Below, one piece after another: positions 6,390 to 30,966 of a stretch of DNA of 32,351 nucleotides. Source of the stretch: a virus. Position numbers and translations under genes: made by a program. The stretch's first letter is position 1; each line of letters starts with the position of its first letter. Under the pieces are notes generated by a model, which saw only the letters and a program-made list of their open reading frames with translations, was not told the origin of the DNA and made no database searches. The stretch is taken from the IMG/VR virus record IMGVR_UViG_3300030329_006456, positions 1 through 32,351 of that record, one strand, 5' to 3'.

Positions 6390-7589
6390 TTAGTGTGCAA
6401 GACCGCTAATAAACAGTCCGACGTCAGTTTGCGCTGGTCCACCAATCTGCGCCGAGAAGGTCATAGAAATGGCCTTGTTAGAACCGATATCCGAGGTGTA
6501 TTCTTGGCTATCAATTTTACACTTCTTGAGGACGTAACGCGCCATTACGTTATCGGATGCTGCAGCTGCAGCCGCGCCCGCAGTACCCGGAGCATTAAGT
6601 TTAAGGTTAATGTCATAAGCCGAATCCGCATCAAGAACATCGGCTAAACTACCGGTGTAAAGATCACCTAGGTTGGCATCTACTGTACACGTTACAGTTA
6701 CCGGGAAGGTAATTTCACGAGCAAATGCGAAACGTGAGCCCAGCTTCTGCAGCGGATCACGCGCAAGGTCAAAGGATAGACTATAACTTTGAATCTTGGC
6801 ATCCGTAATGCTAACACCCGTAAATCCACCCATCTCGGTAGTACTACCATTGGGATAGAAACTTAGGGTGATATCACCCGGGCGTAGCGCACTTACACCA
6901 GAAACATTATTATTACTTTGGCCAGAAGGCAACGCATAATAAATATCAGTAATTTTTGATCCGTCTGTTGGCGTAACTGCTGGAATATAATTACCCGAAA
7001 CACCCTTAGAGAAGGCCATATTCAGACCCTCAACACTAACAGAGGCAGTCGGGAAATCACCCACTGAAGCTTCAGTAGTATAAGAACTAATAAATCCATT
7101 ACCGATACCAATAACATTGGTATTTACAGTAGTACTTGGGTTTAAAACATCACTACCCCCTAAGGCGTCACTACCTTCAGGCACGGTCTTGATAAAGTAG
7201 TTTCTCTCGTCTTCAGTCTTATTCAAAATACCTGAAAGCGCAGCAAAAACAGCCGTGCTACCGCTAGGCGTAAGAGAAAAACCTAAAAGGCTTTCGTTTT
7301 CCAAAGAACCAAGGATATAAGATGTATCTAACGATACAGTGGGAGATTCGAGGATAACCCGGTCAATGGCGGCTAACTCACCAAACTGGTTAACATCCTG
7401 ACGAGCGATGTTAAAACTATAATTGGCGGTTTGTATTCGTTGAAGCTGTTTTACTCTTGATGTGTATCCAACGGTGTTAATCCCAACATTTGCAACCGGC
7501 GTGGTCCCAGACAAATAATGGTAACCCGTAGCAGGAGAAGGGCCAGCGTAGAGAGCTTCACTTTGATAAATAATTCTATTTCTTGGCAT
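6390..7589 (-). CDS. Major tail tube protein (399 aa)
   Basis: A beta-rich 399-residue protein with no signal peptide or membrane helix, predicted to polymerise into the tail tube. It lies after the neck genes and before the chaperone and tape measure genes, the standard slot for the major tail protein, and has its own strong terminator, as expected for an abundant structural gene. It is clearly paralogous to the 466-aa protein at 20095-21495. Matching blocks include QTANYSFNIARQDVNQFGE, a NESLLGFS block, SFDLARDPLQKLG and YTSDIGSNKAISMTF. The Gly/Ser/Thr-rich middle (about 130-250) is where the two differ most. The start has AAGGA eight to ten bases before the ATG. The family name is inferred; the paralogy is visible in the sequence. 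Confidence 0.8.
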   Translation of the reverse strand: MPRNRIIYQSEALYAGPSPATGYHYLSGTTPVANVGINTVGYTSRVKQLQRIQTANYSFNIARQDVNQFGELAAIDRVILESPTVSLDTSYILGSLENESLLGFSLTPSGSTAVFAALSGILNKTEDERNYFIKTVPEGSDALGGSDVLNPSTTVNTNVIGIGNGFISSYTTEASVGDFPTASVSVEGLNMAFSKGVSGNYIPAVTPTDGSKITDIYYALPSGQSNNNVSGVSALRPGDITLSFYPNGSTTEMGGFTGVSITDAKIQSYSLSFDLARDPLQKLGSRFAFAREITFPVTVTCTVDANLGDLYTGSLADVLDADSAYDINLKLNAPGTAGAAAAAASDNVMARYVLKKCKIDSQEYTSDIGSNKAISMTFSAQIGGPAQTDVGLFISGLAH

Positions 7590-10961: not shown

Positions 10962-12071
10962 TTACACCGCGATGCCCACAACGGCACGGGAGTCGATACA
11001 TACGCGACCCTCTTCCAAGTAACCATAGAAGCCTGTCTTTTCTTGACGGGCAACGAATTGGTCATCGGGAAGGGCGGTAAACGTCGCACCACCGTCGTCC
11101 TGACGGGCAACCGGGCGGATAAACGCTTCGCGTGACAGATCAACACCGACCAAAATTTGGTCATCACCGGTAACCCATGTGCCACCACCGCCACCGGGAA
11201 TGGTTACGGAAGAACCAGCAACCATTTCACCAAAGAGGGTGTTGTACTTCTTGCCATCGCCAAACTCGATCAACTCGTGCAACACGACACCAAAAAGCTC
11301 ACTCATTCCAGCATTCCTGAAGATATCTTCACGAATCGGATAAGGTAGCGAAACAGGACCAGTAGAAGTACTACCGATGCTATTCACGGGGTTATAAGCG
11401 AATCCACGTACCATTCCCATGATCTCGGGGCTAACAAAAAGATCGGTAAGACCCTTATTGTCCCAATTCGCGGGGGTTCCGTTAGCGAAAGAAGTGTTGA
11501 TTCTCTTAATGCGAGTCATTAAATTACTCAAGTCATTAACAGAGAACACATCCACCGTATCGGAAGCGATAACGTGGGCTAAACTGTTAGTGGTAGCCTC
11601 AGCAAGAGCCTTCAAAATAACAGCCCACGCATTACGTTCCTGCTTTACAAGAACTTCTTGGGCCATTCTCTCTACCGCCTTGCTTACTACGTCTAAACGT
11701 CCACGACGAGCGTAACGTTTGAGGAAACTCACCGCGCTGTCCAAGCGATAAGTGGCGATCTTTAACTCAGAAAGACCACTTACGTGACTGGTCGGCAAAC
11801 CCCCTGCAACACTTTGGGACCACACGCTGACGTAATCTACGCCTTGGTCGTACCAAAGGTCCAGTGGGATGCTTGGGCTGTCATCCTCATCATAAACGCT
11901 ATCGTTGAAGATCAAGCCAGCGGTGCCAGCTTGAGCTAATACTTTTTGTGCGACAGGTGCGATGAACGCCGCAAAAGCCTCTGCAGCCTGAGCTTGCTCA
12001 GTGGGGTTCTTGGAACCCAAGGCTTTTACAAGTTCTACCTGTTCTGGGGTATTCTTTAACTTTAATTTCAT
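10962..12071 (-). CDS. Major capsid protein, HK97-fold type (369 aa)
   Basis: A 369-residue protein beginning MKLKLKNTPEQVELVKALG. The N-terminal ~50 residues are helical; the remainder has the mixed pattern of an HK97-fold subunit: YDQGVDYVSVWSQSVAGG strand region, a spine-like helix (ARRGRLDVVSKAVERMAQE) and a late hydrophobic strand region ending RVCIDSRAVVGIAV. It has no long N-terminal delta domain, consistent with a separate scaffold fused to the protease upstream. It follows the protease/scaffold and decoration-like genes, has a strong TAGGAG ribosome site and is followed by a strong terminator. Codons here are visibly more G+C-rich than in the tail and packaging genes, in keeping with high expression. 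The family is inferred from order and pattern. Confidence 0.88.
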   Translation of the reverse strand: MKLKLKNTPEQVELVKALGSKNPTEQAQAAEAFAAFIAPVAQKVLAQAGTAGLIFNDSVYDEDDSPSIPLDLWYDQGVDYVSVWSQSVAGGLPTSHVSGLSELKIATYRLDSAVSFLKRYARRGRLDVVSKAVERMAQEVLVKQERNAWAVILKALAEATTNSLAHVIASDTVDVFSVNDLSNLMTRIKRINTSFANGTPANWDNKGLTDLFVSPEIMGMVRGFAYNPVNSIGSTSTGPVSLPYPIREDIFRNAGMSELFGVVLHELIEFGDGKKYNTLFGEMVAGSSVTIPGGGGGTWVTGDDQILVGVDLSREAFIRPVARQDDGGATFTALPDDQFVARQEKTGFYGYLEEGRVCIDSRAVVGIAV

Positions 12072-12097: not shown

Positions 12098-12655
12098 TTA
12101 CAGTTCGAGCTTGAGTAAGATGTGATTCCTCGCATCTGCCAATCCAAGCGTTTTACCAACAGCGGTTCCTAGCGTGGAAGCCGAAGTGAGCTCACCATCG
12201 GGGGACGTATACACGGCCTCACCGAGAGTTGGGGAATCACTAGCAAGCGTAGCGCCACTGTAAAGTACTACTCCGCGTGTAAGAACGGGGGCGGCTTGTC
12301 CGCTGATAACCCAATCATTTTCCGCAGCTTTGCGGGGATGATAGAGCAGCTTCTCGCCATTCTCGTCGGTTTCACGCACATCATAAAGCAGCATTCCCAA
12401 GGGGATATCTTTGGTGCCTGCTGATCCAGAACCGCATACGCCGATCTGGGCAGTGGTACGATACCGCTGGGATACTGTATTGTTGTAACTATTGCCAGCC
12501 GCAGAGAACATTTCTACGGGCTCGTCCTGACTACGCCAACCACTCGAAAGCATTTTTACCATTGTGCCCTTATAGGCAGGAACGGTACCACTCCACGAGA
12601 AAAGGTTAACGACATCATGAGGACTATAATCTTGTAATGGTCTTAATGTTGGCAT
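12098..12655 (-). CDS. Probable capsid decoration/stabilisation protein (185 aa)
   Basis: A 185-residue beta-rich protein that begins MPTLRPLQDYSPHDVVNLF and ends DARNHILLKLEL. It is Gly/Ser/Thr-rich, without signal or membrane segment. The run of short strands (VPAYKGTMVKML, TAQIGVCGSGSAG, DIPLGMLLYDV, ILLKLEL) resembles small beta-barrel proteins encoded directly before the major capsid gene in many large phages. Those decorate or stabilise the shell. It has an AGGAG ribosome site, like the capsid gene 26 bases downstream, and the same G+C-richer codon use. High expression is therefore likely. Confidence 0.72.
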   Translation of the reverse strand: MPTLRPLQDYSPHDVVNLFSWSGTVPAYKGTMVKMLSSGWRSQDEPVEMFSAAGNSYNNTVSQRYRTTAQIGVCGSGSAGTKDIPLGMLLYDVRETDENGEKLLYHPRKAAENDWVISGQAAPVLTRGVVLYSGATLASDSPTLGEAVYTSPDGELTSASTLGTAVGKTLGLADARNHILLKLEL

Positions 12656-12674: not shown

Positions 12675-14168
12675 TTATTTATTAATTTCAAATTGGTCCA
12701 AAGAAAAGGCAGCTTTGTACCGATCAAAAATGGTGGGTTGAGAAGCCTCAATAGAATTGGGAACTTCATCTTCCTCAAGATCAGCATTTTCAATTGCCTC
12801 TTCAACTACTTCCTTCGGAGAGGCTTGAGCGAGCTTTTCGGCTTCTTCAGCCTCTTCTTGCGCCTTGGCCTCTTCCTCGGCCTTTTGCTTCTCAAAAGCC
12901 TCGACCACCTCACGCTTTTTATTTTTCATAAAAACGTTAAGTTTGTCGTGGTACTCCGAAAAGTTGTCTTCGGTCATGTCCTTAATGTCTGATGCAATAA
13001 GCTCGCGCTCTTCATCTTCGAGCACAAATTCTTCATCCAACACAGACATGCGATTAGTAAACCGCTCTTCAGCTTCCTTGGCGGCTTTTTCAGCTTCCAG
13101 CTTGTGAAGGGAGGTCTGTACTCTATCAAGCTGCTCTTTGACTTCTGTATGTTCTGCTACCAAGGCTTCATGCTTTTCAGTTGCCTCGGTAAGAGCAGTG
13201 TTAAGCTTTGACTTTTCAATGCTATATTGTTCAGAGGCCTGTTTAAGCTGGTCTTGAATGAAATCAGAAACGGCAGAAGCTTCAAGAAGCTTGACGCTTT
13301 CGCTATTGATATCTTCAATTTTTGTAATTTTCATAACAACACTCGTATTTTCTATTACATTATTATTTTGGGTTTGTGAAATGTTTTTTTCGCTAGAATT
13401 AACAATTTCTGTTTGGTTTTCCTGAGCCTTGGGCTTGGTATGAATACCAACCACCTCAGCTGCAGGCGTTTCTGTTAAGCCTATCCCCAAGGGAACGACC
13501 TCGTCTATAACTTGGCGGTAAACATTTCTGCCATCCTCAAGAACACCTGAGCCGCCAAAACTCTTCAAATTAGGCCCTAATTCTTCAATTGACTTTTCTT
13601 CATCAATGATAGTTGCATCTTCAAGGTTTTTACTGTCTCCTTCAATCAGGGCTAACTTGTAATCTGAAAAACCGAGCTCCCAACTAGCAGAAATACTATG
13701 GTAGTATTCACTTGCGGGGTCGGTAGAACTTTCAATTAAATCTGCGATTTTACTATTTACCACCTTCCAAATAACCCCTCCAAGCGTGATATTAAAAGGC
13801 CCCTTTATATCCTTCACCTGACTTTCGGTCAGTGGGCGATCTGTTCCAAACTCACTGAAGCCAGCAGTTAAAATGGTTCCCATCACCTTTTCCCTGTTGT
13901 GCTCAATGTTAATAGGTTTATTAATAAAATTTTTATGAATCGCTAACGCCGTCGCCGCATCAATTACGTCGCCATTTTTATTAACACGATTTGCAACAAA
14001 AGCATTAAACGCTATAGGCAATAAATCAATATTAGATTCTGTATCAATATCAGGGACAAAATCTCCAACATCCATTAAACTTGCCATCGCCAAGTACTTA
14101 TCTTTTTCTTCTGATACGATGGGTTTAATAACAGAACTAAAGCTAGTTTTATATTTAAATTCTTTCAT
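12675..14168 (-). CDS. Prohead protease fused to a coiled-coil scaffold (497 aa)
   Basis: Two parts are visible. Residues ~45-245 look like a capsid maturation serine protease: NKPINIEHNREKVMGTI supplies a candidate catalytic His90, and YYHSISASWELGFSDY a candidate Ser (158-162), followed by strands and PLGIGLTETPAAEVVGIH. Residues ~245-278 are an Asn/Gln/Ser-rich linker. From residue ~280 to 470 there is a long, highly charged Glu/Lys/Ala-rich coiled coil typical of scaffolds, then a short tail ending ALFSLDQFEINK-like (AAFSLDQFEINK). Such fusions are known in several phage groups; the protease cleaves the scaffold during maturation. An in-frame ATG at 13334 begins exactly at the scaffold part. 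It is placed right before the decoration and capsid genes. Confidence 0.82.
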   Translation of the reverse strand: MKEFKYKTSFSSVIKPIVSEEKDKYLAMASLMDVGDFVPDIDTESNIDLLPIAFNAFVANRVNKNGDVIDAATALAIHKNFINKPINIEHNREKVMGTILTAGFSEFGTDRPLTESQVKDIKGPFNITLGGVIWKVVNSKIADLIESSTDPASEYYHSISASWELGFSDYKLALIEGDSKNLEDATIIDEEKSIEELGPNLKSFGGSGVLEDGRNVYRQVIDEVVPLGIGLTETPAAEVVGIHTKPKAQENQTEIVNSSEKNISQTQNNNVIENTSVVMKITKIEDINSESVKLLEASAVSDFIQDQLKQASEQYSIEKSKLNTALTEATEKHEALVAEHTEVKEQLDRVQTSLHKLEAEKAAKEAEERFTNRMSVLDEEFVLEDEERELIASDIKDMTEDNFSEYHDKLNVFMKNKKREVVEAFEKQKAEEEAKAQEEAEEAEKLAQASPKEVVEEAIENADLEEDEVPNSIEASQPTIFDRYKAAFSLDQFEINK

Positions 14169-16337: not shown

Positions 16338-16485
16338 TTTTTTTTAGTTGGTCGTTGATGCGCTGCCGCCAGCGGTCTTTTAAGCTTTGGGGTGTAGCGT
16401 CAGCATCACTAGCTTTAGTATCCTGTTTGGCAAGTTCTGTTAGCCATTCTAAAATGGCTTTTACAACTGCTGTCAGCCAGAGCAT
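16306..16485 (-). CDS. Short protein embedded between holin-like and lipoprotein genes (59 aa)
   Basis: A 59-residue protein (start MLWLTAVVKAILEWLTELAKQ, end KKSEDLKNSDAD) that is easy to miss. The N-terminal 20 residues form a hydrophobic or amphipathic helix with two Trp; the remainder is strongly charged. The ATG overlaps the TAA of the holin-like gene (TAATG), and the stop lies inside the next gene, so all three are translationally coupled. Such a short membrane-associated protein could be a holin partner, antiholin or spanin-related component. No family recognised. Confidence 0.7.
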   Translation of the reverse strand: MLWLTAVVKAILEWLTELAKQDTKASDADATPQSLKDRWRQRINDQLKKSEDLKNSDAD

Positions 16486-16700
16486 TAGGTTCCTTTTTTG
16501 GCGAGACCCCTTGAGACCGTATATCCCACCGCGCTAAGTCCTGAAACTAGAAGTCCAAAAACTTTGTTCGCTGTTCCAGCCCCCTCAGGGTCGAGTACCC
16601 CAGCACCCCACAGCAATGAACTCAATGCGACCACAACTGTGATCCAGAATTCCGTTGTGAGATATCCGGGCTTAACATTATTACTTTTTTTAGTAGCCAT
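16485..16700 (-). CDS. Holin-like two-helix membrane protein (71 aa)
   Basis: A 71-residue protein with a basic N-terminus, two predicted transmembrane segments (about 19-35, WITVVVALSSLLWGAGVL, and 46-63, VFGLLVSGLSAVGYTV) and a short basic tail SRGLAKKGT. This size and topology, and the 'TEFW...GLxxSxLxxxGYTVSRGLAKK' pattern, match a common phage holin-like family. Holins make the inner-membrane hole that starts lysis. It has a clear AAAAAAAGGAAAC leader and is followed by coupled small envelope genes. No canonical endolysin is visible in the window. Confidence 0.75.
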   Translation of the reverse strand: MATKKSNNVKPGYLTTEFWITVVVALSSLLWGAGVLDPEGAGTANKVFGLLVSGLSAVGYTVSRGLAKKGT

Positions 16701-16723: not shown

Positions 16724-17905
16724 TTAATTTAAATCTCCAAGCAATTTTAATTCCTCTAACTTTGCAAGGGGTTTTTGAATTCCGCCGATAGCGGTATAGA
16801 CCGTCAGGTCAGGTTTGTCACCACTATAGATTCCACGGTGAACGACGCTACCCTTTCTAAGAATGCGGGAGAACTGGTCGAAGGCTCTATCTAAATTCTG
16901 CTGGGGAACTTCATCCAAAACGTTTTTTCCACCAATAATTACGACACCTGCAGAGTTGCCAGTACTCAAATCAATACCCCCTGCCAACATATTGTTTTTC
17001 AAGTTATCCCTAACAGTTTTGCTAATACTGGATGGGCCACTTGTCCAATCCTCGATACTTGCCGCGCCGAAAACAATAAGACCAGTATCTAATATTTGTT
17101 TATAATCATTTGAATCAAAAGCAGAATAACTACTATCTTTTGACGCCGTATGGTTAAACAAATGGAATAATCCCGCGATGCTCATGTTAGCAGTTTCCCA
17201 GAAGGGCCCAACAGGTAATCCCGGATAAAGTTTATTTATCTTTTCATTATCTAATAAAATAAGAGGAGAAACAATTTCTTTCTCTACCAATTCCCACACC
17301 TTACAAAGAGTAGAAAAAGCATTAGCATTAACTTTCTTCCCCTCTGAATGCTTGGGTAGAGCAAGGACGACACCCACTTTATTAGTGGGTGCTTTAATTG
17401 ACCGTTGCATTTCCTGTGCGGTTTCTACTAACGGACAAAGCGTCCCTGCTCCTGAGCCTCCACCGGCCCCGGCACATATAAAAATTCTATCTACAGATTC
17501 TCCGAAAGAATCATACATGAAATCAAGAACATCTTCTTTTCTCTCGGCGTACAACTTTTCGGCCACCGATGGGTCTTTTCCTGCGCCGCCATCCCCGATG
17601 CATAATTTGTTGTCGAGTTTAATGGTATTTAAATCTTGCTGGGCAGTATTGATGGCAGAAATCTTTCTATAGCCAAGCGTGTGAAAAGCTTCAGCGATTC
17701 GTGAACCCCCTTGTCCTGCACCCACAAAAGCAAACTTAAAGGACACATCACACACATCTTTATTGACGTCTTCCTTTTTAGAGGGTTTGACTGCTGTGGG
17801 CAGCGGAATATTGGGTATAGAAATATCTACATCGTTTCCATGCATATAGGAAACAATATCATCTACAGGAGTTGGTTGCTCTGTGTTATCTTTGTTTTCG
17901 TTCAT
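16724..17905 (-). CDS. Phage FtsZ/tubulin-family GTPase (393 aa)
   Basis: The 393-residue protein has an N-terminal ~52-residue polar extension, then FKFAFVGAGQGGSRIAEAF (GTP-binding T1 loop, 62-69), AINTAQQDL (86-92), GGAGKDP (106-112) and the tubulin signature GAGGGSGAGT (146-155). LLDNEKI follows near 220. FDSNDYKQIL (263-272) fits the T7 loop, with Asp264 and Asp267 in the positions that complete GTP hydrolysis in FtsZ and tubulin. The C-terminal domain follows with VYTAIGGI. The protein should bind and hydrolyse GTP and form filaments. In known phages such filaments centre a replication structure or deliver capsids (PhuZ, TubZ); here the role is unknown. It lies between tail-fibre and lysis genes, 11 bases after a small acidic protein. 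Confidence 0.9.
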   Translation of the reverse strand: MNENKDNTEQPTPVDDIVSYMHGNDVDISIPNIPLPTAVKPSKKEDVNKDVCDVSFKFAFVGAGQGGSRIAEAFHTLGYRKISAINTAQQDLNTIKLDNKLCIGDGGAGKDPSVAEKLYAERKEDVLDFMYDSFGESVDRIFICAGAGGGSGAGTLCPLVETAQEMQRSIKAPTNKVGVVLALPKHSEGKKVNANAFSTLCKVWELVEKEIVSPLILLDNEKINKLYPGLPVGPFWETANMSIAGLFHLFNHTASKDSSYSAFDSNDYKQILDTGLIVFGAASIEDWTSGPSSISKTVRDNLKNNMLAGGIDLSTGNSAGVVIIGGKNVLDEVPQQNLDRAFDQFSRILRKGSVVHRGIYSGDKPDLTVYTAIGGIQKPLAKLEELKLLGDLN

Positions 17906-17916
17906 GTCGAAAACAA

Positions 17917-17922
17917 TTACAC
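17917..17922 (-). promoter_or_regulatory. GTGTAA leader motif upstream of the FtsZ-like gene
   Basis: Minus-strand AAAAGGTGTAATTG, 11 nt upstream of the ATG at 17905. Here the motif is also the last codon and stop (GTG TAA) of the 75-aa gene, so this case could be coincidence. Confidence 0.3.
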
Positions 17923-18144
17923 CTTTTCTGTTGACTCTGGCGCATTTTCCACTGGTGCGTTATTAAGAGCCTCTACCACCATCTGGATAGACCTCTCCAA
18001 AAGTGAGTGTTCTTGATAATTTAATCTAACTTCCCTCGCCGCACCCACAACATTATTTAGAGCCGTGTGAAGAGTCAGTTGCTGTGGAGCCTGTTCCTCT
18101 GCGGTTTCAGGGGTATTTTGAGGGGTATTTTCTTCAGTATTCAT
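17917..18144 (-). CDS. Small acidic protein before the FtsZ-like gene (75 aa)
   Basis: A 75-residue acidic protein: the first ~25 residues are Glu/Thr/Pro/Gln-rich and disordered (MNTEENTPQNTPETAEEQAP), the middle (LHTALNNVVGAAREVRLNYQ, then LLERSIQMVVEALNNA) is helical, and the end is acidic again. I start it at 18144; a longer reading to 18180 would add a hydrophobic Ile-rich stretch without a ribosome site. It lies 11 bases from the FtsZ-like gene and may be its partner, for example an adaptor or filament regulator. That link is inference. No family recognised. Confidence 0.65.
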   Translation of the reverse strand: MNTEENTPQNTPETAEEQAPQQLTLHTALNNVVGAAREVRLNYQEHSLLERSIQMVVEALNNAPVENAPESTEKV

Positions 18145-18187
18145 ATTGCTTATTATAATAGTTAGAAGAAAAAAAATCAAATAATAT

Positions 18188-20080
18188 TTAACCTATATAT
18201 TCAACCATACAGACACCATCCCTGCCGGTACCTTGACCGAAACCTCCACCGGCCCCGAAGGCGTCACCAAAAACTGACCCTACCCTTGGCGCTGGGGCTC
18301 GGATTTCCGACGCCCAGTCTCCCCCGGGGTTAATGCCATCCACCCCTGCTACATTAAGGTCGCCTCCGGTAGCAACACCCCCTTTGTGCCCCCGCCCTCC
18401 ACCGAAACCGCCTCCTGCTGTTATGTTAGCTTTGGAAGTAGTCCCCCCGGGGCCCTTAAAAGTTGAATTGGTTCCATTTGCTCCGGGGTTGCCACCACCA
18501 TACCCGCCACCCTTACCAACTACTACTGTATATTGTTCATTCTGGGTGGTGGCAATAACTTTTTCACAATATCCACCCGACCCGCCGCTTTCACCCAGCC
18601 CAGCGCCACTTCTCCAACTTTGTGAGTTTCGCGCGCCACCACCGCCACCCATGATTTTAATCCTTATGGATGTCACGCCTTTGGGCACCGTAAAGGTTCC
18701 ATTAGAGGTGAAATAAGTCGTCTGGATGCCTCCTCCTCCCGAAGCCCCTGTCATAACGGTTCCGTCAGTGAAGCGAACTTCCTTTGCCCGAACACTTCCA
18801 TTTACGTCGAGGAGATATTGAGGATTAGATAGGCCAATGCCAACATAACCATTGTTATCAATAGTCATTTTTTCAGCCCCACTGGTGGCATCTATAAATC
18901 TGAGACGGTTAGCATGAGACCCACTATTACCATGAACATCAATCGCCCATGCAGCAGCATCATCATTTGCCCGCGTCAGTCGAATCTCGCCACCTTCAGC
19001 ACTAGAGTCTTGTCTTCCGAACTGCGCGACACCAGCAACATGCAGTAAAGTCGTGGGCCCAGTGGTCCCAATACCAACTTTGCCATCTTTTAAAATGGTC
19101 ATTGCCGTGGTAGTTGAAGCGGCGTTTTGTACCCATAAGTCCAGCCTGCCCACGGAAGTATTGGCGGCTCCAGCAGTAATTATTTCTGCGGTTAATCCAC
19201 CCAGTAATCCACCGCTGGCATTTAAAATTGACAACCCACCCCTATTACCCACCGTGTCAGGAATAGAGGTTCTTAGAGCGGCAGACGTTGCAACAGTTTC
19301 GGCCCCAGCACGAACATCTAGCATCGCAGAAGGAGAAGAGGTGCCAATTCCCACAAGACCAGCAGCGGTAACCCTGAAGGTTTCACCCACGCCAGTTTTA
19401 GTTGAAGAAACATAAAAATCTCCACCCGCCGCTGTACCGTAAACCAAGCCACAAGTATTAGTTCCGCTGGGTGTTAATTTGAGTTCTACCCCTCCCCCTG
19501 CATTTTCAATAATAGCACCATCGGAAGCCGAGGCAGAATTATAATAAACATGGAATTTAACTGTGGGAGCAATTCCAATTCCAAATTTCCCGTCCTTGTC
19601 AATGGTTACGTGAGTAGCCCACGAGCCACCCTCGTAACTCAAGAACTTCATGCTTCCACCATCAACTAAATCAATAGTTCGCGAATCGTGATTATCATCA
19701 CCCTGATCCGAAACAAACTTAAGAGAAGCTGTCCCAGCTTCATCGGAAGCCTTAATTAATACGACAGGGCTTGCCCCTTCTACGTGAAGTAGCTGGGCTG
19801 GCGAAGTTGTACCAATACCAACGTTACCACTAGAATCAATTCGAAGACGCTCAGTATCAGCAGTAGCAACGGTTAAGTAATTCGACCCCGCATGGCCATA
19901 AATGTATTGGTGCGAATCACTTCCCAAAAAGAGGGTAGATGTTGCTGCGTTAAGAATGAGGTTGCCCCCCACATCTAACTTTTGACTTGGCGTAGTTGTT
20001 CCCACGCCAATATTCCCCGCGACATGAAGATTATAATCAAATTCTGCAGGGTCTAAATTTCTCAACGCAATCGTAGCCAT
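18188..20080 (-). CDS. Tail fibre/adhesin with GIGT repeats and glycine-rich tip (630 aa)
   Basis: A 630-residue protein. Residues 1-430 carry six copies of a ~16-residue motif G.VGIGT..P...L.V.G (about 23, 86, 165, 242, 334 and 412), separated by 60-95 residues of beta-rich sequence. This motif is typical of trimeric tail fibres. From ~450 on comes a TSNGTFTVPKGVTSIRIKI strand region followed by a glycine-rich domain (GGGGG, GGYGGGNPG, GGGFGGGRG) ending CMVEYIG. Such tips are receptor-binding domains with loops that vary between relatives. No chaperone domain of the S74 type is visible. It follows the tail-tube paralogue and precedes the FtsZ-like pair, with a GGAG ribosome site. Confidence 0.88.
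   Translation of the reverse strand: MATIALRNLDPAEFDYNLHVAGNIGVGTTTPSQKLDVGGNLILNAATSTLFLGSDSHQYIYGHAGSNYLTVATADTERLRIDSSGNVGIGTTSPAQLLHVEGASPVVLIKASDEAGTASLKFVSDQGDDNHDSRTIDLVDGGSMKFLSYEGGSWATHVTIDKDGKFGIGIAPTVKFHVYYNSASASDGAIIENAGGGVELKLTPSGTNTCGLVYGTAAGGDFYVSSTKTGVGETFRVTAAGLVGIGTSSPSAMLDVRAGAETVATSAALRTSIPDTVGNRGGLSILNASGGLLGGLTAEIITAGAANTSVGRLDLWVQNAASTTTAMTILKDGKVGIGTTGPTTLLHVAGVAQFGRQDSSAEGGEIRLTRANDDAAAWAIDVHGNSGSHANRLRFIDATSGAEKMTIDNNGYVGIGLSNPQYLLDVNGSVRAKEVRFTDGTVMTGASGGGGIQTTYFTSNGTFTVPKGVTSIRIKIMGGGGGARNSQSWRSGAGLGESGGSGGYCEKVIATTQNEQYTVVVGKGGGYGGGNPGANGTNSTFKGPGGTTSKANITAGGGFGGGRGHKGGVATGGDLNVAGVDGINPGGDWASEIRAPAPRVGSVFGDAFGAGGGFGQGTGRDGVCMVEYIG
18195..18730 (-). repeat. Glycine-codon-rich tip region of the tail fibre gene
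   Basis: About 180 codons with runs of Gly (GGN) codons broken by polar residues. The corresponding plus strand is rich in C-runs and codes on paper for a Pro-rich frame, which is a shadow. Low complexity and variable loops make this a place for recombination between related phages. Confidence 0.55.
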
Positions 20081-20089
20081 ATGTACTCC

Positions 20090-20095
20090 TTACAC
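20090..20095 (-). promoter_or_regulatory. GTGTAA leader motif upstream of the tail fibre gene
   Basis: Minus-strand TATTTTAGTGTAAGGAG, 9 nt upstream of the ATG at 20080. It partly overlaps the stop of the tail-tube paralogue (TAG) and runs directly into the GGAG ribosome site. Confidence 0.4.
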
Positions 20096-21495
20096 TAAAA
20101 TACAGGAAATAAGTCTGCCGTTCTTTCATTTATAAGGGCATTCCCAGAATCGTCCACCAAAGTAGGCCACGGTGCCCCTCCGCTTACCACATATTGATCG
20201 GCAAGTTGAAACCGCTTGCCACTTACATAAAGGTTTCTTGTAGGATCATCAAAATCAATATCTAGACCAAAATTTAAAGAAGTTGTTTTGTTAGTGCCAA
20301 TGGTGGAGGTATAGTCTGCCGCCAAAAGATCGGCACCAGAAATTTTATACTTTAATACATCTTCTACTATCTTGGCTCCCGTTATATTTTTATGACCCTT
20401 TAAATTAATATTTAAATTATATTTTGCATCATACTCAAAAGAACTTAAAAAATCTCCTGTCACATTTCCACTAGTTAATAACTCCATGGAAATTGTAGCT
20501 TTAACGGGCATTTTGACAGGTCTATCCGTGTATAATTTATACCCCAGATAAGGAACCGGGTCTCGTGCTAAGGTAAGAGAAATTTCACACGATTGAACAC
20601 TATCTATAATCCAATTAATTCCTGATGGATTATCTTGAGTTATAGAAAGATCAATATCCTTAGACGAAAATAAAAATGATTTATACTTAGGAATAGATGT
20701 TAGCTCATCAGGGTTGGATTCAAAAGCTCTAGGAATAAAAAATTTAACCCCCTCACTTTGATCTACTCGTGTGCCCGCTCTGTTTTTGTAGAAACTAGAA
20801 CCATCATACGCACTAAGATGGGGAATGCTTACTCCACTGGCGGTATTTAAAAAATTTCCTGCATCACCTATTAAACCCACATCTACGGTAGCTAATTCGC
20901 CCACCTGAAATTTCACTTGGTAACTATTAACATAACAATTTTGAATAATAAAAGTATTATAACTGGGGCTATTATTATCAATAAAATCATCTATATCGAA
21001 ATAAGGTAAAACACTACCTGTCTCTATAACAGGGTAAGCACCATACGTTACATCCCTTAATCCCCCTTCTCCCTCTTTGGTTGAAACCAAATATAGATTT
21101 CTTCCCCCCTGACAGTCAGGAGACGGGGGAAACATAAGTCCCGATACAAAAGGGACTTCTTGGGGGTCTAATTGATTTTGGGCAGAAAAACCAAGTCGTA
21201 GTTCATTATTTATACCCTCTAAATAATAAGATAAATTTGCTTGAATCGCAGGAGGAGCCTCTGAAATTCTGTCAGCGGGGGATGTCTTTCCCAGAACTTG
21301 GGCATCCGAACGAGGCATATCAAATGTATAATCAAAACTTTGAACTGTGTTTAATCTTTTTAGAATTTGAAATTGTTGACCTGTGAGAGCACCGTCGCCT
21401 GTGTATCCGGTAACAACAAAATTTGCTTCCCCGGAGCCCGGTGACCCCACGAAAATATCCTGAACTGCATAGCTTACTCTATTCCGTGACCCCAT
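20095..21495 (-). CDS. Tail-tube paralogue, putative minor tail tube/baseplate protein (466 aa)
   Basis: A 466-residue beta-rich protein clearly related to the tail tube protein at 6390-7589. Shared blocks include QSFDYTFDMPRSDAQVLGK near the N-terminus, NNELRLGFS, CEISLTLARDPVPYLGY, KYNLNINLKG and YTSTIGTNKTTSLNFGLDI near the C-terminus. The central part has its own insertion (about 130-240, with GVKFFIPRAF). There is no membrane segment. It lies between the portal and tail-fibre genes, away from its paralogue. It may form a distal or alternative tube ring, the tail tip adaptor for the fibre, or the main tube with the other as minor form. The start ATG at 21495 is 12 bases before the portal stop. 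Function beyond the tube fold is inference. Confidence 0.8.
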   Translation of the reverse strand: MGSRNRVSYAVQDIFVGSPGSGEANFVVTGYTGDGALTGQQFQILKRLNTVQSFDYTFDMPRSDAQVLGKTSPADRISEAPPAIQANLSYYLEGINNELRLGFSAQNQLDPQEVPFVSGLMFPPSPDCQGGRNLYLVSTKEGEGGLRDVTYGAYPVIETGSVLPYFDIDDFIDNNSPSYNTFIIQNCYVNSYQVKFQVGELATVDVGLIGDAGNFLNTASGVSIPHLSAYDGSSFYKNRAGTRVDQSEGVKFFIPRAFESNPDELTSIPKYKSFLFSSKDIDLSITQDNPSGINWIIDSVQSCEISLTLARDPVPYLGYKLYTDRPVKMPVKATISMELLTSGNVTGDFLSSFEYDAKYNLNINLKGHKNITGAKIVEDVLKYKISGADLLAADYTSTIGTNKTTSLNFGLDIDFDDPTRNLYVSGKRFQLADQYVVSGGAPWPTLVDDSGNALINERTADLFPVF

Positions 21496-21507: not shown

Positions 21508-23481
21508 TTAGCCCTTACTAACATATAAAATACTAGCTAGATAATCATTAATTTGATGATGAGCAGCAATTTCTTGAATTTCTTTTATTCTTTCTTGATT
21601 GGTGTCCACTGGCTTTTTCACGTAAGACTCAATACACCTTCTCCAGTTGCTTGGGTTTTCATTGCTTACGATAACACCTACGATATCTTGCGCTATTCCT
21701 TTTTGTTTGCGGCTCAGTCTTTTTATTGCGTGAACTTTTCTTAAGGAAGCTTCTACCTGTTTAGTCAGGCTGCTCGCAAGAATCATATTCTCTGTAATCT
21801 TTTTAAGGCTATATTTTTCTTCCGCCTTACTTTGCTCACCCTGTCCGATAGGATTGGTTTGCTTGGTCTCTTGAGGTGTACCTGTACCGCTAGGGCGACC
21901 ACTTGGTTGTGCATCTTTTTTCTTAGATGGAGCACTCATGGGTTGGCTCCCCCCGATAAGAGGTTCATATAGACCTTCATCCCTAAGATGTTTAAACCTT
22001 CGTTGGGCTTCTTCAGATTCCTCAGGGGTAGGAAGTCTTCCGTTTTCAATAGCTGTAATTCCCTCTTCTGCAGTAAGCACCCCAAGTTCTACAAGGCGAT
22101 TAAAAATCCTAGACTTTGTAGGATCATCACTTAAGGAAGTCTGCTCAAAATAAGGTGTTGGATAATTCTTAAACCCCATCAAATGAGCAATTCGTTTAAT
22201 CTCTGGGAGTAAGAATTCATTTATAAAGGATTTACGAGCCTGTCTTAATCGTGCTAAAAATACTTCAATTTTAATTGATTGGTTTGCAAATTTTTCATTA
22301 CCAATAAGTATATTTTGTAATCCAGTTTGGATGTCACGGTCTACCACTTCATACTTTTCAGAACCCAGTAGGCTACCAATATCAGGAATTACAAATTTTG
22401 CATCAGTTGTATAATCAGCAATCAACACGCGTCCTACTGATTCGTTTTCAAATAAGCTTTGCATGGCGGAAAGATTTTTTTGATTAACACCACCCTTTTC
22501 AGGTTCAGTTCCCATGGTCACCAATAAAATAGCTTGCTGCATCGTACGTGCAATTGCCATGTCCATTTTTTTCATTTCAGCTTTCCAGTTTATATCTTCT
22601 AAAACTGGATAACCCATAGGCACTGAAAAAGGCTCATAATCTTGCTTCTTATAAAAGACAGCATTAATTTTATCAGCATCTAATGGAATCAAAATGGTAT
22701 TGCTTCTGGTTTTTTTAATTTGTTCTCTTATGTGCTCGGGGAGCGTTGAAAGAACCTCGCGGTCTTCTTCGGTTCGCGGATTTCTAAGCCGAGCTAATTC
22801 ATAGTCTGTAAGAATCTTATAATAGATTCCATTCACAAAATTTAAGCCACCTTGAATTTGTATGTCTGCAGGATTTAAAATGGAATACCTTACGGGAAGT
22901 TTCGTCTCAGCATTAGAAGTGCCAAAGGTTTTTGTAATTTTTCGTATATCCCCCTCCCTAAGGGAAGCATCGAATCTATATATAAAGACATTTCCAGAAC
23001 GATAATATTCCCTAAAAAACTTATCCATCACCGACCACAACCCGACCTTAGTAAAAAATGCTTCAAAAAAGTCACGCGACTTCTGACTCCCCCCACGGTA
23101 AAAAATATCAGATGAAGAAAACTCTGTCATCATATCAATTGTATTTCGAAAAATAGCAAAATTATAGTAAGCCTTTTGACACAGTATGACCGTATCTCTA
23201 ATATCTAGGTTGGATTTATTAGAAACACCATAAACATATTTAAAAGGAATAACCCCATCTTGAATATTTTTAAACCTATCAGTCCTATGAATATCTGCAG
23301 CTTTGTTACGCCGTGTAGCTGCTACCGCCTCATATGTAGATAAAGGAGTACCAGATGCCGCTACAGCTTCTTGAAGAGGCGTTTTAGGGGATGTTTTGGC
23401 CGAAGCAGTCTTTTTAGCCGCCGAAGGCTTCTTAGCGGTTGCTACTTTGGTCTTTTTTGTTTCTTTTTCTCCTTTTTTCAT
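21508..23481 (-). CDS. Portal protein (657 aa)
   Basis: A 657-residue protein. Residues 1-45 are a basic Lys/Ala/Thr-rich tail (AKKPSAAKKTASAKTSPK). The core has portal features: RNTIDMMTEFSSSDIF, a clip-like beta region with YRFDASLREGDI and PVRYSILNPADIQIQGG, the stem region EMKKMDMAIARTMQQAIL and a GLQNILIG-type helical wing. A Gln/Pro/Ser linker (~510-550) and a basic C-terminal helical domain follow. Twelve copies would form the DNA entry ring. It lies 25 bases after the large terminase, the standard arrangement for packaging genes. Confidence 0.85.
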   Translation of the reverse strand: MKKGEKETKKTKVATAKKPSAAKKTASAKTSPKTPLQEAVAASGTPLSTYEAVAATRRNKAADIHRTDRFKNIQDGVIPFKYVYGVSNKSNLDIRDTVILCQKAYYNFAIFRNTIDMMTEFSSSDIFYRGGSQKSRDFFEAFFTKVGLWSVMDKFFREYYRSGNVFIYRFDASLREGDIRKITKTFGTSNAETKLPVRYSILNPADIQIQGGLNFVNGIYYKILTDYELARLRNPRTEEDREVLSTLPEHIREQIKKTRSNTILIPLDADKINAVFYKKQDYEPFSVPMGYPVLEDINWKAEMKKMDMAIARTMQQAILLVTMGTEPEKGGVNQKNLSAMQSLFENESVGRVLIADYTTDAKFVIPDIGSLLGSEKYEVVDRDIQTGLQNILIGNEKFANQSIKIEVFLARLRQARKSFINEFLLPEIKRIAHLMGFKNYPTPYFEQTSLSDDPTKSRIFNRLVELGVLTAEEGITAIENGRLPTPEESEEAQRRFKHLRDEGLYEPLIGGSQPMSAPSKKKDAQPSGRPSGTGTPQETKQTNPIGQGEQSKAEEKYSLKKITENMILASSLTKQVEASLRKVHAIKRLSRKQKGIAQDIVGVIVSNENPSNWRRCIESYVKKPVDTNQERIKEIQEIAAHHQINDYLASILYVSKG

Positions 23482-23506: not shown

Positions 23507-25321
23507 TTAGACCATAATGGGACTAAAAGTCTCCTGCGGACCCGCTTCAGGAGCAGTCATAATATCATTATAACACTTTAAGGCCCACGCTGCAATCATT
23601 AAAGTCGTATAATTATCTCGTCGAGCCCGATTTGCCGAGGTATTCCTCTTAAGATGTTGGGGCAAATCAAAGGTCTGTGTTCCTCTTGCTGTACTTTTAA
23701 CTTCAATTAAAGCACATTGCTTTTTTGTTTGATAAATTAAATTATCTTGTTCTTCTATAAGGTCTAGGATAGTTTCTCCTGTATTAAATTTTAATTCAAT
23801 TTTTTGATTTACCATTCGATTAAAAGCTTGATTGTTAGCGGTTGCCCGAGAAGCAAACCACAGACGCTTGTGGTCTATACATGCCTGTAAATGTTCATTA
23901 GCTTTTCTCAACCAATTAGAGGTAAACACCTGTTTGAAACAAATTTTGTTATCTTGTTTGTTATATTCTCGGCGTGCGCTCTTTATTTCCTTGTCATAAT
24001 TAATCCCTTCCGCATCACTATTAAATTCAAAAAAACTTATCTTCTTTGTGAAAAGGGGAGACTCGTTACAACTGTCAATGAACTGAAAACCAGCATTGTC
24101 AATACATATCATTTCAAAGTCAAACGCGCTGCACAAATAATGAAAATATTCAATATGCTCCTTAAGGTCACCCCCCGCCACGGCATAACTGTGAACTAAC
24201 GTAGATATCTGTGTTTCGGGGTCAATCTCAATTACAGACATTGCAAAAAAGTCTGAACTTGGACTGTTGGAAAAGCTCGGGTCAATTGCACAAATATATT
24301 TTGAATCTGCTTTTCCCTTAATACGTGTAGTGGGATTTTCCCCGTCAGGCACCGTGCATTCGTGCATTTTTTTTGCACTGTAATATGAATCACTCCCGTC
24401 TGTAAATTGAGCACAGTATTCCCGCTGAAACGACGCGCTAGAAGTTCCACCATTTTTTGCCTCGTCAATAATAGTAGTATCAATCATTTCTTCAGGAAGA
24501 GCTTCGTACCCCAATTGAGAAACAAAATAAGTTGACTGTTCTTCTTCCTCGGCATAAATTTTAGTGACCCATTCTTTGTATGTTTTGTATAAATTTTCAA
24601 ATGTATAACTTGCCGAAGACAGGGCTATCATCTTAGAGGTGTTTTCAAATTGAATTCTGTCCTTGTCTTTCATCACCCCTTCTTCAATTAGTTTATCTTC
24701 GATTTCTCTAATCTCCAAGCGTTCTTTCATATTTTGTGGGGCTACTAAAAAGGGCATTAAGACGGTATTGATTATATCTTCAGGAAGAAGGAGGTACTCA
24801 TCTAGCACCAAAACATTTGCACGGAAGCCACGAATTTTTTCACCGTTCAAAGGAATGGCGGTTATGGTGCCCTCGTTAATTTGCCACTCAAATTGGTCGT
24901 TGCGTTTTACTTTAGCACCAAAAGCTTGAGCTAAAAGTTCGGCCCCCTTTGACTCTACCATCTTCTCTAAATTATTAAAAATAAATCGAGCAGTACGAAA
25001 AGTTGGCCCTGCTACAAGAATTTTTGTAGCGGGTTCAAATATACACTGCAAGAAACAAAATACAGAAGCAATAAAGGTTTTTCCACAGCCACGACCCAAA
25101 ACAAGCATACTAAAATTTTTATTGAGCATCCCCTTAAGAAGAATTTCTTGAAATGGTGCTAATTTTATTCCTGAAATAAGTTCAGTAGTAAGCCCGAGGT
25201 TAGCCCGTAAAAACTTGGCCAAAGTTATCTTTGCTTCTTTATCTTCGAGTGCCCCCTTCAAGGCTTTGAATTGGGCATTAATGTTCTCGGACTTTTGATC
25301 TATTTTTGGGGAGTACCACAT
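23507..25321 (-). CDS. Terminase large subunit (604 aa)
   Basis: A 604-residue packaging motor. The ATPase domain has Walker A LGRGCGKT (75-82), Walker B LVLDE (171-175) and coupling motif ALSSASY (233-239). The nuclease domain shows the first acidic motif in AIDPSF (Asp347), the second in ICIDNAG (Asp408) and a third region near residues 520-550 (LDLIEEQDNL, CALIEVKS). It cuts concatemeric DNA and pumps it through the portal. Length is normal for the family. The ATG overlaps the TAA of the ERCC4 nuclease gene (TAATG), so the two are coupled. It is followed by the portal gene. Confidence 0.95.
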   Translation of the reverse strand: MWYSPKIDQKSENINAQFKALKGALEDKEAKITLAKFLRANLGLTTELISGIKLAPFQEILLKGMLNKNFSMLVLGRGCGKTFIASVFCFLQCIFEPATKILVAGPTFRTARFIFNNLEKMVESKGAELLAQAFGAKVKRNDQFEWQINEGTITAIPLNGEKIRGFRANVLVLDEYLLLPEDIINTVLMPFLVAPQNMKERLEIREIEDKLIEEGVMKDKDRIQFENTSKMIALSSASYTFENLYKTYKEWVTKIYAEEEEQSTYFVSQLGYEALPEEMIDTTIIDEAKNGGTSSASFQREYCAQFTDGSDSYYSAKKMHECTVPDGENPTTRIKGKADSKYICAIDPSFSNSPSSDFFAMSVIEIDPETQISTLVHSYAVAGGDLKEHIEYFHYLCSAFDFEMICIDNAGFQFIDSCNESPLFTKKISFFEFNSDAEGINYDKEIKSARREYNKQDNKICFKQVFTSNWLRKANEHLQACIDHKRLWFASRATANNQAFNRMVNQKIELKFNTGETILDLIEEQDNLIYQTKKQCALIEVKSTARGTQTFDLPQHLKRNTSANRARRDNYTTLMIAAWALKCYNDIMTAPEAGPQETFSPIMV

Positions 25322-26289
25322 TATAAAACTTTATTATCATAGCAATATTGCAAATCTAAAAAAAGATGACGAGCATTACCTAAAAATATTTTTTCGATAA
25401 CCCTTGAAGCTTCTTTTCTGCCATTAACAAATAAAAATTGAACATGAGGATAAGCTTGTATCAAATATCGAACATTGTGAAAAATATATTCGGGAGTTGC
25501 TTTTATTTTTTTGGAAACTTGTGGTAAAAATTTAAATGATCGGCACTTATTTAAATTTTCTTCCACCAAAATAATTAAAGACGTTTGTGCTTCACCGGCT
25601 CGTTCAATTTCATTAGTTAACCTCTTAAAGCCACCACTTAACGTAGAAATAAAATCTGCTACAGACTTTCTTTCAATATGACACCCTTGTGAATAACCGG
25701 GGTGACTCAAGGCATAATCTCCAAATTTTAAATTTTTAATTTCAGTCTTTACGTTAAATTTCAAGGGCTGCTGTTCACGGGTGTCTACATAGATTTTAAA
25801 TTTTTCTTTTATAGCATCTTTTTCTAGTTCAAAATTATAATCTTCTGAATGAGGAACGTTATATTTAATATTTAAACCCATACTCTTGCATAGTTCATAA
25901 TAGTCTCCAAAAAGAGCATTGTAAATTTGTATAGCGGGCATCATCAAGGTACGTAGCTCAACTTGGGTAGGAGCAAAAATTAATTTCTTTTTTCTTTTTC
26001 TAATTTTCAAAAGCTCTCGACAATACTCTTGGGCATCTCGAGGGTCTTGGTTTTTTAACCACAGCCTAAGGTGTTCCCTAGAGTTAAAATCATTTTCAAA
26101 ATAATATTCTTTACTTTTAAATTTTATGATACTCCCATCGTGCTTGTCATAGCGGGGGTAATAAGTTTGATAATATTCCGCCATCCTCATCTTATGAGCT
26201 TTGAGGTGAGAATGCAATTGGCGGTCAGTATCAAACTCTTTTTTACAAGCTTTACATTTTGCCTTTTTAGCTTTCATCGTGGTAATCAT
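25321..26289 (-). CDS. C2H2 zinc finger-ERCC4 nuclease protein (322 aa)
   Basis: The 322-residue protein starts with a C2H2 zinc finger (Cys12, Cys15, His28, His32). Residues ~35-160 are basic and helical. The C-terminal half is an ERCC4/XPF-type nuclease: VDTREQ (168-173), LKFGDYAL (187-194), IERKSVADF (205-213), the GD...ERK...D pattern. Such nucleases cut branched or flap DNA. It lies directly before the large terminase, coupled by a one-base TAATG overlap. It could resolve branched DNA before packaging, as T4 endonuclease VII does, or take part in genome cutting. That role is inference. The start ATG at 26289 (or the next in-frame ATG at 26277) overlaps the sulfotransferase gene. Confidence 0.88.
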   Translation of the reverse strand: MITTMKAKKAKCKACKKEFDTDRQLHSHLKAHKMRMAEYYQTYYPRYDKHDGSIIKFKSKEYYFENDFNSREHLRLWLKNQDPRDAQEYCRELLKIRKRKKKLIFAPTQVELRTLMMPAIQIYNALFGDYYELCKSMGLNIKYNVPHSEDYNFELEKDAIKEKFKIYVDTREQQPLKFNVKTEIKNLKFGDYALSHPGYSQGCHIERKSVADFISTLSGGFKRLTNEIERAGEAQTSLIILVEENLNKCRSFKFLPQVSKKIKATPEYIFHNVRYLIQAYPHVQFLFVNGRKEASRVIEKIFLGNARHLFLDLQYCYDNKVL

Positions 26290-27025
26290 AATTAAAATAT
26301 TCTATGTCTTTTTTATATAATTTTTCTACAATTTTTCTAGTTTCGTCATCATAGAACTTGGAGTAATGGGGGCGTTTGTTTAGCTTTTTAACTTTCTTTA
26401 ATTTTTTATATTTAACACCCAAGTCTTCACACACCTTCTGAAAATCAGACTCAATATTTTCCACGCGCCCAATAAAATCTACACACACCTTACCAGACTT
26501 GTTCTTGAGCCATTCTACTTGGTTGGAAACCCACCTTCCCTTATGCCCATACTTGTAAATATCCTGATAAAGAGATAAATCATTAGCTGAGTCTATGTGC
26601 TCAAGAAAATTTTTAAAATTGTATTTCAGAGCTAAATACCACGCCGGTTTAACCTGAGGGTGACCGCCATGCAAATCCACGCCTCTCTTGTGGCTCTCTC
26701 CCCCCAAGAACATGGCGGGTGATAAAAAATCCACGTTCAGGCTATACCCACCTTCGTTCCATGATCCGCAATAAGAAGCATCGCTTGCATTGTACCAAAA
26801 AGCTGATCTATTAATCCATAAATACCACGAAACTATTCTGTCCCACGGGTTTCTTACAAAAGAAAAAGTATAGTATTTTTTCCAATCACCCTTTCCCATC
26901 TTGTCAATGTACTCGGAGGCAACTAAATGCTGATCGGCTGAATTAGCACCGAAAAACATTTCAATGCTACTACCTGCAGCTTTATTAACATGAACAAATA
27001 TAGTTTTTGGATTTTTTAATATCAT
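26267..27025 (-). CDS. Sulfotransferase-family protein inside the packaging operon (252 aa)
   Basis: A 252-residue protein with the PAPS-binding signatures of membrane-type sulfotransferases: 5'-phosphosulfate loop VHVNKAAGSSIEMF (11-24) and 3'-phosphate motif TFSFVRNPWDRIVSWY (53-68). Ser20 is a candidate binding residue and Arg58 lies in the RNP motif. It should transfer sulfate from PAPS to a sugar or protein. No signal peptide or membrane helix, so it would act in the cytoplasm. It overlaps the candidate small terminase (ATGA) and the zinc-finger nuclease gene by 23 bases, so its reading frame is embedded in a tightly coupled packaging operon. Possible roles: modifying a virion protein, host glycan or nucleotide pool; I cannot tell which. 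Confidence 0.83.
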   Translation of the reverse strand: MILKNPKTIFVHVNKAAGSSIEMFFGANSADQHLVASEYIDKMGKGDWKKYYTFSFVRNPWDRIVSWYLWINRSAFWYNASDASYCGSWNEGGYSLNVDFLSPAMFLGGESHKRGVDLHGGHPQVKPAWYLALKYNFKNFLEHIDSANDLSLYQDIYKYGHKGRWVSNQVEWLKNKSGKVCVDFIGRVENIESDFQKVCEDLGVKYKKLKKVKKLNKRPHYSKFYDDETRKIVEKLYKKDIEYFNYDYHDES

Positions 27026-29922: not shown

Positions 29923-30966
29923 ATGACCGACAGCCAACTAGAATCCAAGACTTTTTATGATAATTATTTTAGGGGTACCAAAAAAGAATATCTATTCGAA
30001 ACCACTGGTGAAATATCAGCAAGAATTGATAACATTATTTATATATACCTCGTTGGAGTGGTAGGAAGGTCTTACCGTATTCAATACGACCCCTGTGGGT
30101 CAAATGGCCTCGTTTGGACAAATCCAGAGTCAGCTACATATGAAGATGAAAAATGTGTAGAAACTAACATTTACTACGGCACCATAGACACTCATCCAGA
30201 CGACATAAACAAAATTATGATTCTAGGTTTTCCACACTCTGGAACAACCATATTAAGAGCTAAAATGGGTGACTGCCAAAATGCCATGGAAGTAACCAAT
30301 GAAATTTTTTATATTGACCCCGTATTAGCAGCCAATCACAAAGATTTAAAAGTAATTGGAAAATCTGTTACCCCCACCCTTCAGCCCTGCTACAGGGGGT
30401 CTTTCAATGAAAAAAACATACAAACCCCATATGGTGACGATAAATTTTGTTTTGATGTAAACACAGTACTTCTTATCAAAAATCCCTACCAAATTTTTAG
30501 TTCTATAAATAAAAGGTTTGGAGGCACCATACCAGAAGATAAAACATTTTCTTTTGACTACTACGAAAAATTTGCACGGCTTTGGTTAAAATATAGAAAC
30601 GAAAACGAAAAAAGAGTTACCTCCCTAAAATACGAAGAAATGTTTAATAATGATTTTAAAGTCTTAAGAAATCTTTTTAACAAGCTTGGGTTAGTTTATG
30701 ATGCTGACATTTTTACAGGTAAAAAATTTGATTACTCAGTTGAAGGTGCTTGGCTAGCAGGTAGGGCAGATGAATATCCTGATGCAGACCCAGAAAAGAG
30801 CCCGATCTATTACCGCATAAATCAAATGAATCGTGAGTTCAAAGACATGAGCAATCCCGAAGCTTACAAAAATATACACCCCGAGACTCTAGACAAAATA
30901 AACAACTCCCAAATAGTCAAAGAACTTGGATATAGTGCGAATCACACCAAGGATAACGAAGATTAG
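29923..30966 (+). CDS. Sulfotransferase-like protein with N-terminal extension (347 aa)
   Basis: The C-terminal ~250 residues show sulfotransferase motifs: a PAPS 5'-loop GFPHSGTTILR (102-112) and a 3'-phosphate motif LLIKNPYQIFSSI (183-195), with Lys187 and Ser193/194 as candidate binding residues. The N-terminal ~90 residues contain beta strands (IIYIYLVGVVGRSYRIQYDP) and a Cys-containing stretch, and may be a separate small domain. The end (INNSQIVKELGYSANHTK) resembles the C-terminal helix of such enzymes. No signal peptide. It follows the small coupled genes by six bases, and its 3' end overlaps a minus-strand gene by 50 bp. Substrate unknown; it differs in sequence from the second sulfotransferase at 26267-27025. 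Confidence 0.78.
   Translation: MTDSQLESKTFYDNYFRGTKKEYLFETTGEISARIDNIIYIYLVGVVGRSYRIQYDPCGSNGLVWTNPESATYEDEKCVETNIYYGTIDTHPDDINKIMILGFPHSGTTILRAKMGDCQNAMEVTNEIFYIDPVLAANHKDLKVIGKSVTPTLQPCYRGSFNEKNIQTPYGDDKFCFDVNTVLLIKNPYQIFSSINKRFGGTIPEDKTFSFDYYEKFARLWLKYRNENEKRVTSLKYEEMFNNDFKVLRNLFNKLGLVYDADIFTGKKFDYSVEGAWLAGRADEYPDADPEKSPIYYRINQMNREFKDMSNPEAYKNIHPETLDKINNSQIVKELGYSANHTKDNED

Follow-up and report, generated by a model that had tools for sequence, protein, structure and literature searches.

Why does a phage carry a gene for a tubulin-like GTPase among its late genes, and what may the protein do there? Most of what is known of phage tubulins comes from jumbo phages that form a nucleus and from plasmid-like prophages with TubZ. 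The gene studied here lies in a stretch of 32,351 nucleotides, the whole of which is called the window (IMG/VR virus record IMGVR_UViG_3300030329_006456). Its features are listed in Table 1.

Table 1. Features of the window; residue numbers are those of the tubulin
Feature	Position	Strand	Basis or remark
Presumed major capsid protein	10962..12071	minus	Size and position; conserved family A3; no informative family or PDB match
Capsid cement-like protein	12098..12655	minus	Relative L014 matches Phage_cement, E=1.3e-4, below cut-off
Probable prohead protease/scaffold	12675..14168	minus	Synteny; a relative weakly matches a head maturation protease, E=0.039
Holin-like small two-helix membrane protein	16485..16700	minus	Frequent downstream neighbour of tubulin (synteny)
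FtsZ/tubulin-superfamily GTPase	16724..17905	minus	393 aa; Pfam Tubulin, AlphaFold2 model, TubZ fold matches, tree
T7 catalytic loop FDSNDYKQIL	17090..17119	minus	Residues 263-272; D264 and D267 invariant in A1
T4 signature loop GAGGGSGAGT	17441..17470	minus	Residues 146-155
T3 loop GGAGKDP	17570..17590	minus	G106, G107, G109 and K110 invariant
T1 loop GAGQGGSR	17699..17722	minus	Residues 62-69
N-terminal motif DISIPNIPLP	17798..17827	minus	Residues 27-36; D27 and P36 invariant in A1
Small acidic protein	17917..18145	minus	pI 4.5; real ORF upstream of tubulin, at end of fibre gene
Tail fibre protein	18188..20080	minus	phrog_9942, E=6.5e-29
Portal protein	21508..23481	minus	Foldseek matches listed are portals; PHROG portal families; profile match to YonE of SPbeta
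Terminase large subunit	23507..25321	minus	Pfam Terminase_6N; phrog_2, E=5e-25

The tubulin and its place in the superfamily

The ORF is complete within the limits first given for it, and it is read on the minus strand (17905..16724). In a profile search, Pfam Tubulin (PF00091) matched the protein at 46 bits (E=1e-11), above the curated cut-off of 33 bits, and there was a weak match to Pfam TubZ-like_C. The T1, T4, and T7 loops lie where the preliminary description had put them, and the T7 acidic residues that it had called intact are present; the pair recurs in 120 of 123 tubulin loci. The AlphaFold2 model, a check that had been proposed at the outset, is a confident FtsZ/tubulin fold (mean pLDDT 85, pTM 0.83). 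Its best PDB folds are TubZ (TM 0.73-0.74), followed by M. jannaschii FtsZ and CetZ, and a sequence-profile search of the PDB ranked B. cereus TubZ at the top. As judged from sequence and model, the window protein is a complete FtsZ/tubulin-superfamily GTPase fold with predicted GTPase activity. In this superfamily, the nucleotide loops and the T7 acidic pair give assembly-dependent GTP hydrolysis, which is by analogy predicted for the window tubulin as well, its nucleotide loops being invariant in the family.

The N-terminal motif sits in a disordered tail of about 45-50 residues in the AlphaFold2 model. Across the family, it is of the type [DN]-hydrophobic-x-hydrophobic-P-[DE] with a P further downstream (also given as DISxPDIxxP). 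The strict pattern was found in 89 of 115 sequences, and the misses that were inspected are one-letter variants. Lying in a disordered tail, the motif looks like a putative docking peptide. At the other end, about 18 residues follow the last strand, and both the alignment and the model are devoid of a C-terminal linker and of the conserved FtsA/ZipA-binding peptide.

Is the gene peculiar to the window? A first scan of viral contigs revealed 57 relatives with 49-100% identity, and a profile-based second scan yielded at least 485 candidate viral loci. The carriers are uncultivated phage sequences, mostly marine, and the long phage records have exactly one tubulin each. The gene is estimated to be under strong purifying selection, with a dN/dS of 0.03-0.07 that is similar to that of the portal gene (computable pairs, several pairs being saturated). 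Since relatives are numerous, the T7 pair is retained, and dN/dS is low, the window tubulin is not a product of chance. In the cultured phage records scanned, no family member was found; the single weak match, MT835896 (E=0.2), was rejected, as the tree showed that this ORF, from an unverified gut contig, is of the canonical FtsZ-like kind. The plasmid records scanned gave TubZ-type matches at 23-31% identity. A 3.3-kb contig of an Anaerolineae MAG (L059) has a basal family member at 33% identity, and the same MAG also has a canonical FtsZ. This is possibly a phage contig binned with the MAG, and family tubulin was not found in 300 other genomes of the phylum to which Anaerolineae belongs.

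To which branch of the superfamily does the family belong? A tree of 45 proteins was built with IQ-TREE (LG+C20), leaving out three Chloroflexota reference rows (wrong ORFs); it included FtsZ, PhuZ, TubZ, and CetZ, as had been recommended. The phage tubulins form a single clade (98/92) that takes in the basal Anaerolineae MAG sequence, which agrees with the earlier claim that the GTPase is the phages' own. This clade and six TubZ-type sequences join at 97/95, as sisters and not one nested in the other, while two TubZ-labelled rows are placed elsewhere. The FtsZ clade and the PhuZ clade (100/100 each) both stand apart. CetZ, represented by one partial sequence on a long branch, is not sister to the phage family. 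Sisterhood with TubZ is a working placement, the program having flagged long branches, whereas the tree is firm that the family is neither FtsZ nor PhuZ. The acquisition of a host FtsZ, recent and without conservation in related phages, had been named as the finding that would overturn the claim; it is ruled out by the position outside the FtsZ clade, and the gene is conserved in related phages.

How does the family compare with known systems? TubZ of type III plasmid partition (Bacillus plasmids; PDB 4ei7, 2xka) is nearest in sequence, fold (TM about 0.73), and tree, and the T7 acidic residues are common to both, at about 20-31% identity. However, TubZ has a long C-terminal tail, while the phage family lacks it and has a conserved N-terminal tail instead. 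Bacterial and archaeal FtsZ proteins have the same GTPase fold and T1-T7 loops but also the C-terminal linker and the FtsA/ZipA peptide, which the phage family lacks. PhuZ of nucleus-forming phages such as phiKZ is also a phage-encoded tubulin, with a proposed role in capsid/DNA positioning; in the present family, by contrast, the gene is portal-coupled and chimallin is missing. The PhuZ model phrog_4733 did not match the window protein (only phrog_17961 did), and chimallin was not found in 13 records of up to 211 kb (fragments), while the phiKZ positive control was detected. PhuZ membership and a phage nucleus were rejected on the PHROG search, the tree, and the chimallin search. FtsZl1 and FtsZl2 are also non-canonical FtsZ-like families, but FtsZl1 is without alignable T7 and C-terminal elements, both of which the phage family has (PMC2875224). 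FtsZ-like phage proteins are already in databases under automatic names; one of them, A0A6J5RW92 ("FtsZ Cell division GTPase" of an uncultured Caudovirales phage), is the top viral fold match (TMq 0.81, 27% identity), although its superposition on the window tubulin is uneven (rmsd 26.7). The best explanation of these comparisons would be a third lineage of phage-encoded tubulin/FtsZ GTPases, nearest to plasmid TubZ.

Gene neighbours and carrier phages

The preliminary description had placed the gene amid late genes, in a setting unlike those of PhuZ and TubZRC, and the family supports this view. Of about 120 loci fetched via the tubulin, 85 have the portal gene as the next gene upstream of it. 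In these 85 loci, the gap is -29 to +11 nucleotides with a median of 2, which is on sequence grounds a translational-coupling distance. Since the portal gene usually precedes the tubulin gene by about 2 nucleotides, the late action that had been suggested for the tubulin is strengthened as an inference. The portal model of the window is of low confidence (pLDDT 58), and it is the agreement between fold and family matches that supports the portal label. Many genomes have a holin-like gene past the tubulin, and a head module with weak protease and cement matches comes next.

In the window, the portal and tubulin genes are separated by about 3.6 kb containing two tail/fibre genes and the small acidic ORF. 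The position between tail fibre and lysis genes is a local rearrangement and not the family norm. The tail fibre flank was correctly described, while the lysis label is without family-model support; the holin-like ORF was recognised by eye and matched no Pfam or PHROG family model. The small acidic protein had been taken for a partner of the tubulin, and this was rejected. Of about 120 tubulin loci, only 5 have its ORF, and it is not a tubulin partner because it recurs at the end of the fibre gene in tubulin-less relatives (such as L197, L208, L212, and L213), tracking the fibre gene. L197 has the same order as the window, fibre, small ORF, and holin-like gene, with no tubulin between.

Other ORFs of the window were also noted. 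Those at 6390-7589 and 20095-21495 are paralogues of one family (cluster 19); in most tubulin-less relatives, a member of this family is the gene right after the portal gene. An ERCC4-type nuclease gene (25321-26289, minus strand; phrog_3490, E=3.8e-15) adjoins the terminase gene and is conserved in the clade. Two sulfotransferase-like ORFs (26267-27025, minus strand; 29923-30966, plus strand) were recognised by eye only.

Could the protein be a TubZ-like filament that segregates or positions replicating phage DNA, for example in a plasmid-like or pseudolysogenic state? Plasmid TubZ is the nearest relative by sequence, fold, and tree, and the weak TubZ-like_C match points the same way, but I consider this unlikely. 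TubZ has TubR and tubC as neighbours, whereas the phage family has none adjoining. No TubR was found next to the tubulin in the family loci, where the tubulin is preceded by the portal gene or some other late gene; the ORFs adjoining the tubulin in the window gave no Pfam match to a DNA-binding domain; and the search for a tubC iteron array near the tubulin gave only short two-copy repeats. A TubZRC operon was rejected for the lack of an adaptor gene and iterons. Moreover, the TubZ-type C-terminal tail is missing, the gene is in the late head module, and the gene set is of the lytic type: in the main group, long records encode rIIA/rIIB, ribonucleotide reductase, a clamp loader, and a tape measure protein, and a search of 11 records for an integrase found none.

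Some of the carriers have other conspicuous genes. Rfam RF00023 confirmed tmRNA genes in a main-group phage (G009, L184:10829-11256) and a T4-like phage (G003, L164:235-652). On a 120-kb contig with a tubulin gene, 23 tRNA genes are packed into about 16 kb (L172:3268-19063). Very long ORFs were found in two main-group phages (L181:2-11950, 3983 aa; L188:5057-16084, 3676 aa).

A host-directed role, in which the tubulin would interfere with the Z ring or reshape or enlarge the cell before lysis for larger bursts, is slightly less probable again than DNA segregation. The superfamily includes host division proteins, and the tubulin adjoins the holin-like gene in the window and in many relatives. 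On the other hand, a division block by co-polymerisation with host FtsZ would be unlikely, because the identity is about 20-24% over fold-aligned structures and the clades are separate. Inhibition would need no conserved T7 catalytic loop, and phages usually inhibit host division via small peptides.

Inheritance, loss, and transfer

Is the tubulin a core gene of its phages? Tubulin identities track portal identities (r=0.77) and terminase identities (r=0.65; Mantel p=0.001), and co-inheritance with both genes is thereby shown at the sequence level. Loci were also sampled via the terminase to remove the ascertainment bias of tubulin-based sampling, and a locus was counted as tubulin-less when it had a complete portal and at least 900 nucleotides after it with no tubulin. 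In this sample, 21 loci have the tubulin and 24 are without it despite room, the remainder being uninformative, so that a universal core gene of the clade was rejected. No tubulin was found in 15 tubulin-less records searched at full length, all of which are fragments. On the terminase tree, the presence and absence of the tubulin need 5 changes with absences nested within presences, best read as an ancestral gene that was probably lost several times. The gene is old and useful yet dispensable, and head assembly does not depend on it, because several phages of the same clade are without it.

Several records have a family tubulin at 53-57% identity without the terminase or the capsid protein of the main clade. 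One of them, a contig of 211 kb, encodes a head protein, protease, portal, and tail sheath of the T4 type as well as UvsX. Four representatives of this T4-like group form a nested clade within the phage tubulin tree; therefore, the gene has moved between unrelated phage lineages. In this group, the tubulin gene does not adjoin head genes. Since the N-terminal motif is retained there, its putative binding partner may not be specific to one head type.

These phages also bear on the reading that the protein forms no filament but is an assembly factor or virion protein, such as a GTPase that serves as a chaperone at the portal/prohead vertex or is packaged there. Although the gene is coupled very tightly to that of the portal, this reading seems the least probable of all. 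The same protein is found in T4-like phages, whose head is unrelated and in which its gene does not adjoin the portal gene; the T7 acidic pair, which normally serves neighbouring subunits, is retained; and several clade members have no tubulin.

A possible role in virion assembly

What may the tubulin do, then? The reading that I favour, at somewhat less than even confidence, is a late GTPase filament that positions proheads or packaging sites, with the N-terminal motif docking. The tubulin would be produced late, together with head proteins. It would also polymerise, forming filaments driven by GTP, since the acidic residues of the T7 loop act on the nucleotide of the next subunit. The motif of the disordered tail would dock cargo or a cell structure, and in the infected cell, the filaments would bring proheads or packaging sites into place, raising the virus yield. 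The proposed role would resemble capsid transport by PhuZ, minus the phage nucleus. Absences within the same clade, the T4-like group in which the gene is not adjacent to head genes, and the 3.6-kb separation in the window all count against head positioning. More tentatively, the family may represent a third phage cytoskeleton: a TubZ-derived cytomotive filament made with the portal, whose N-terminal peptide would tether proheads or packaging sites in large lytic phages that form no nucleus, both siphovirus-like and T4-like.

Marine jumbo phages that have both chimallin and tubulin have been reported (PMC9123017), and a study of hot-spring viromes noted clusters of tubulin/FtsZ proteins (PMC8597652). 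A literature search, with most subscription journals outside its scope, found no description of a portal-coupled TubZ-sister family. The present results suggest that phages with a family tubulin build a cytoskeleton while assembling new particles. If this is true, the cytoskeletal organisation of virion assembly would be far commoner than thought, and the use of FtsZ as a cellular marker in metagenomes may take in viral genes.
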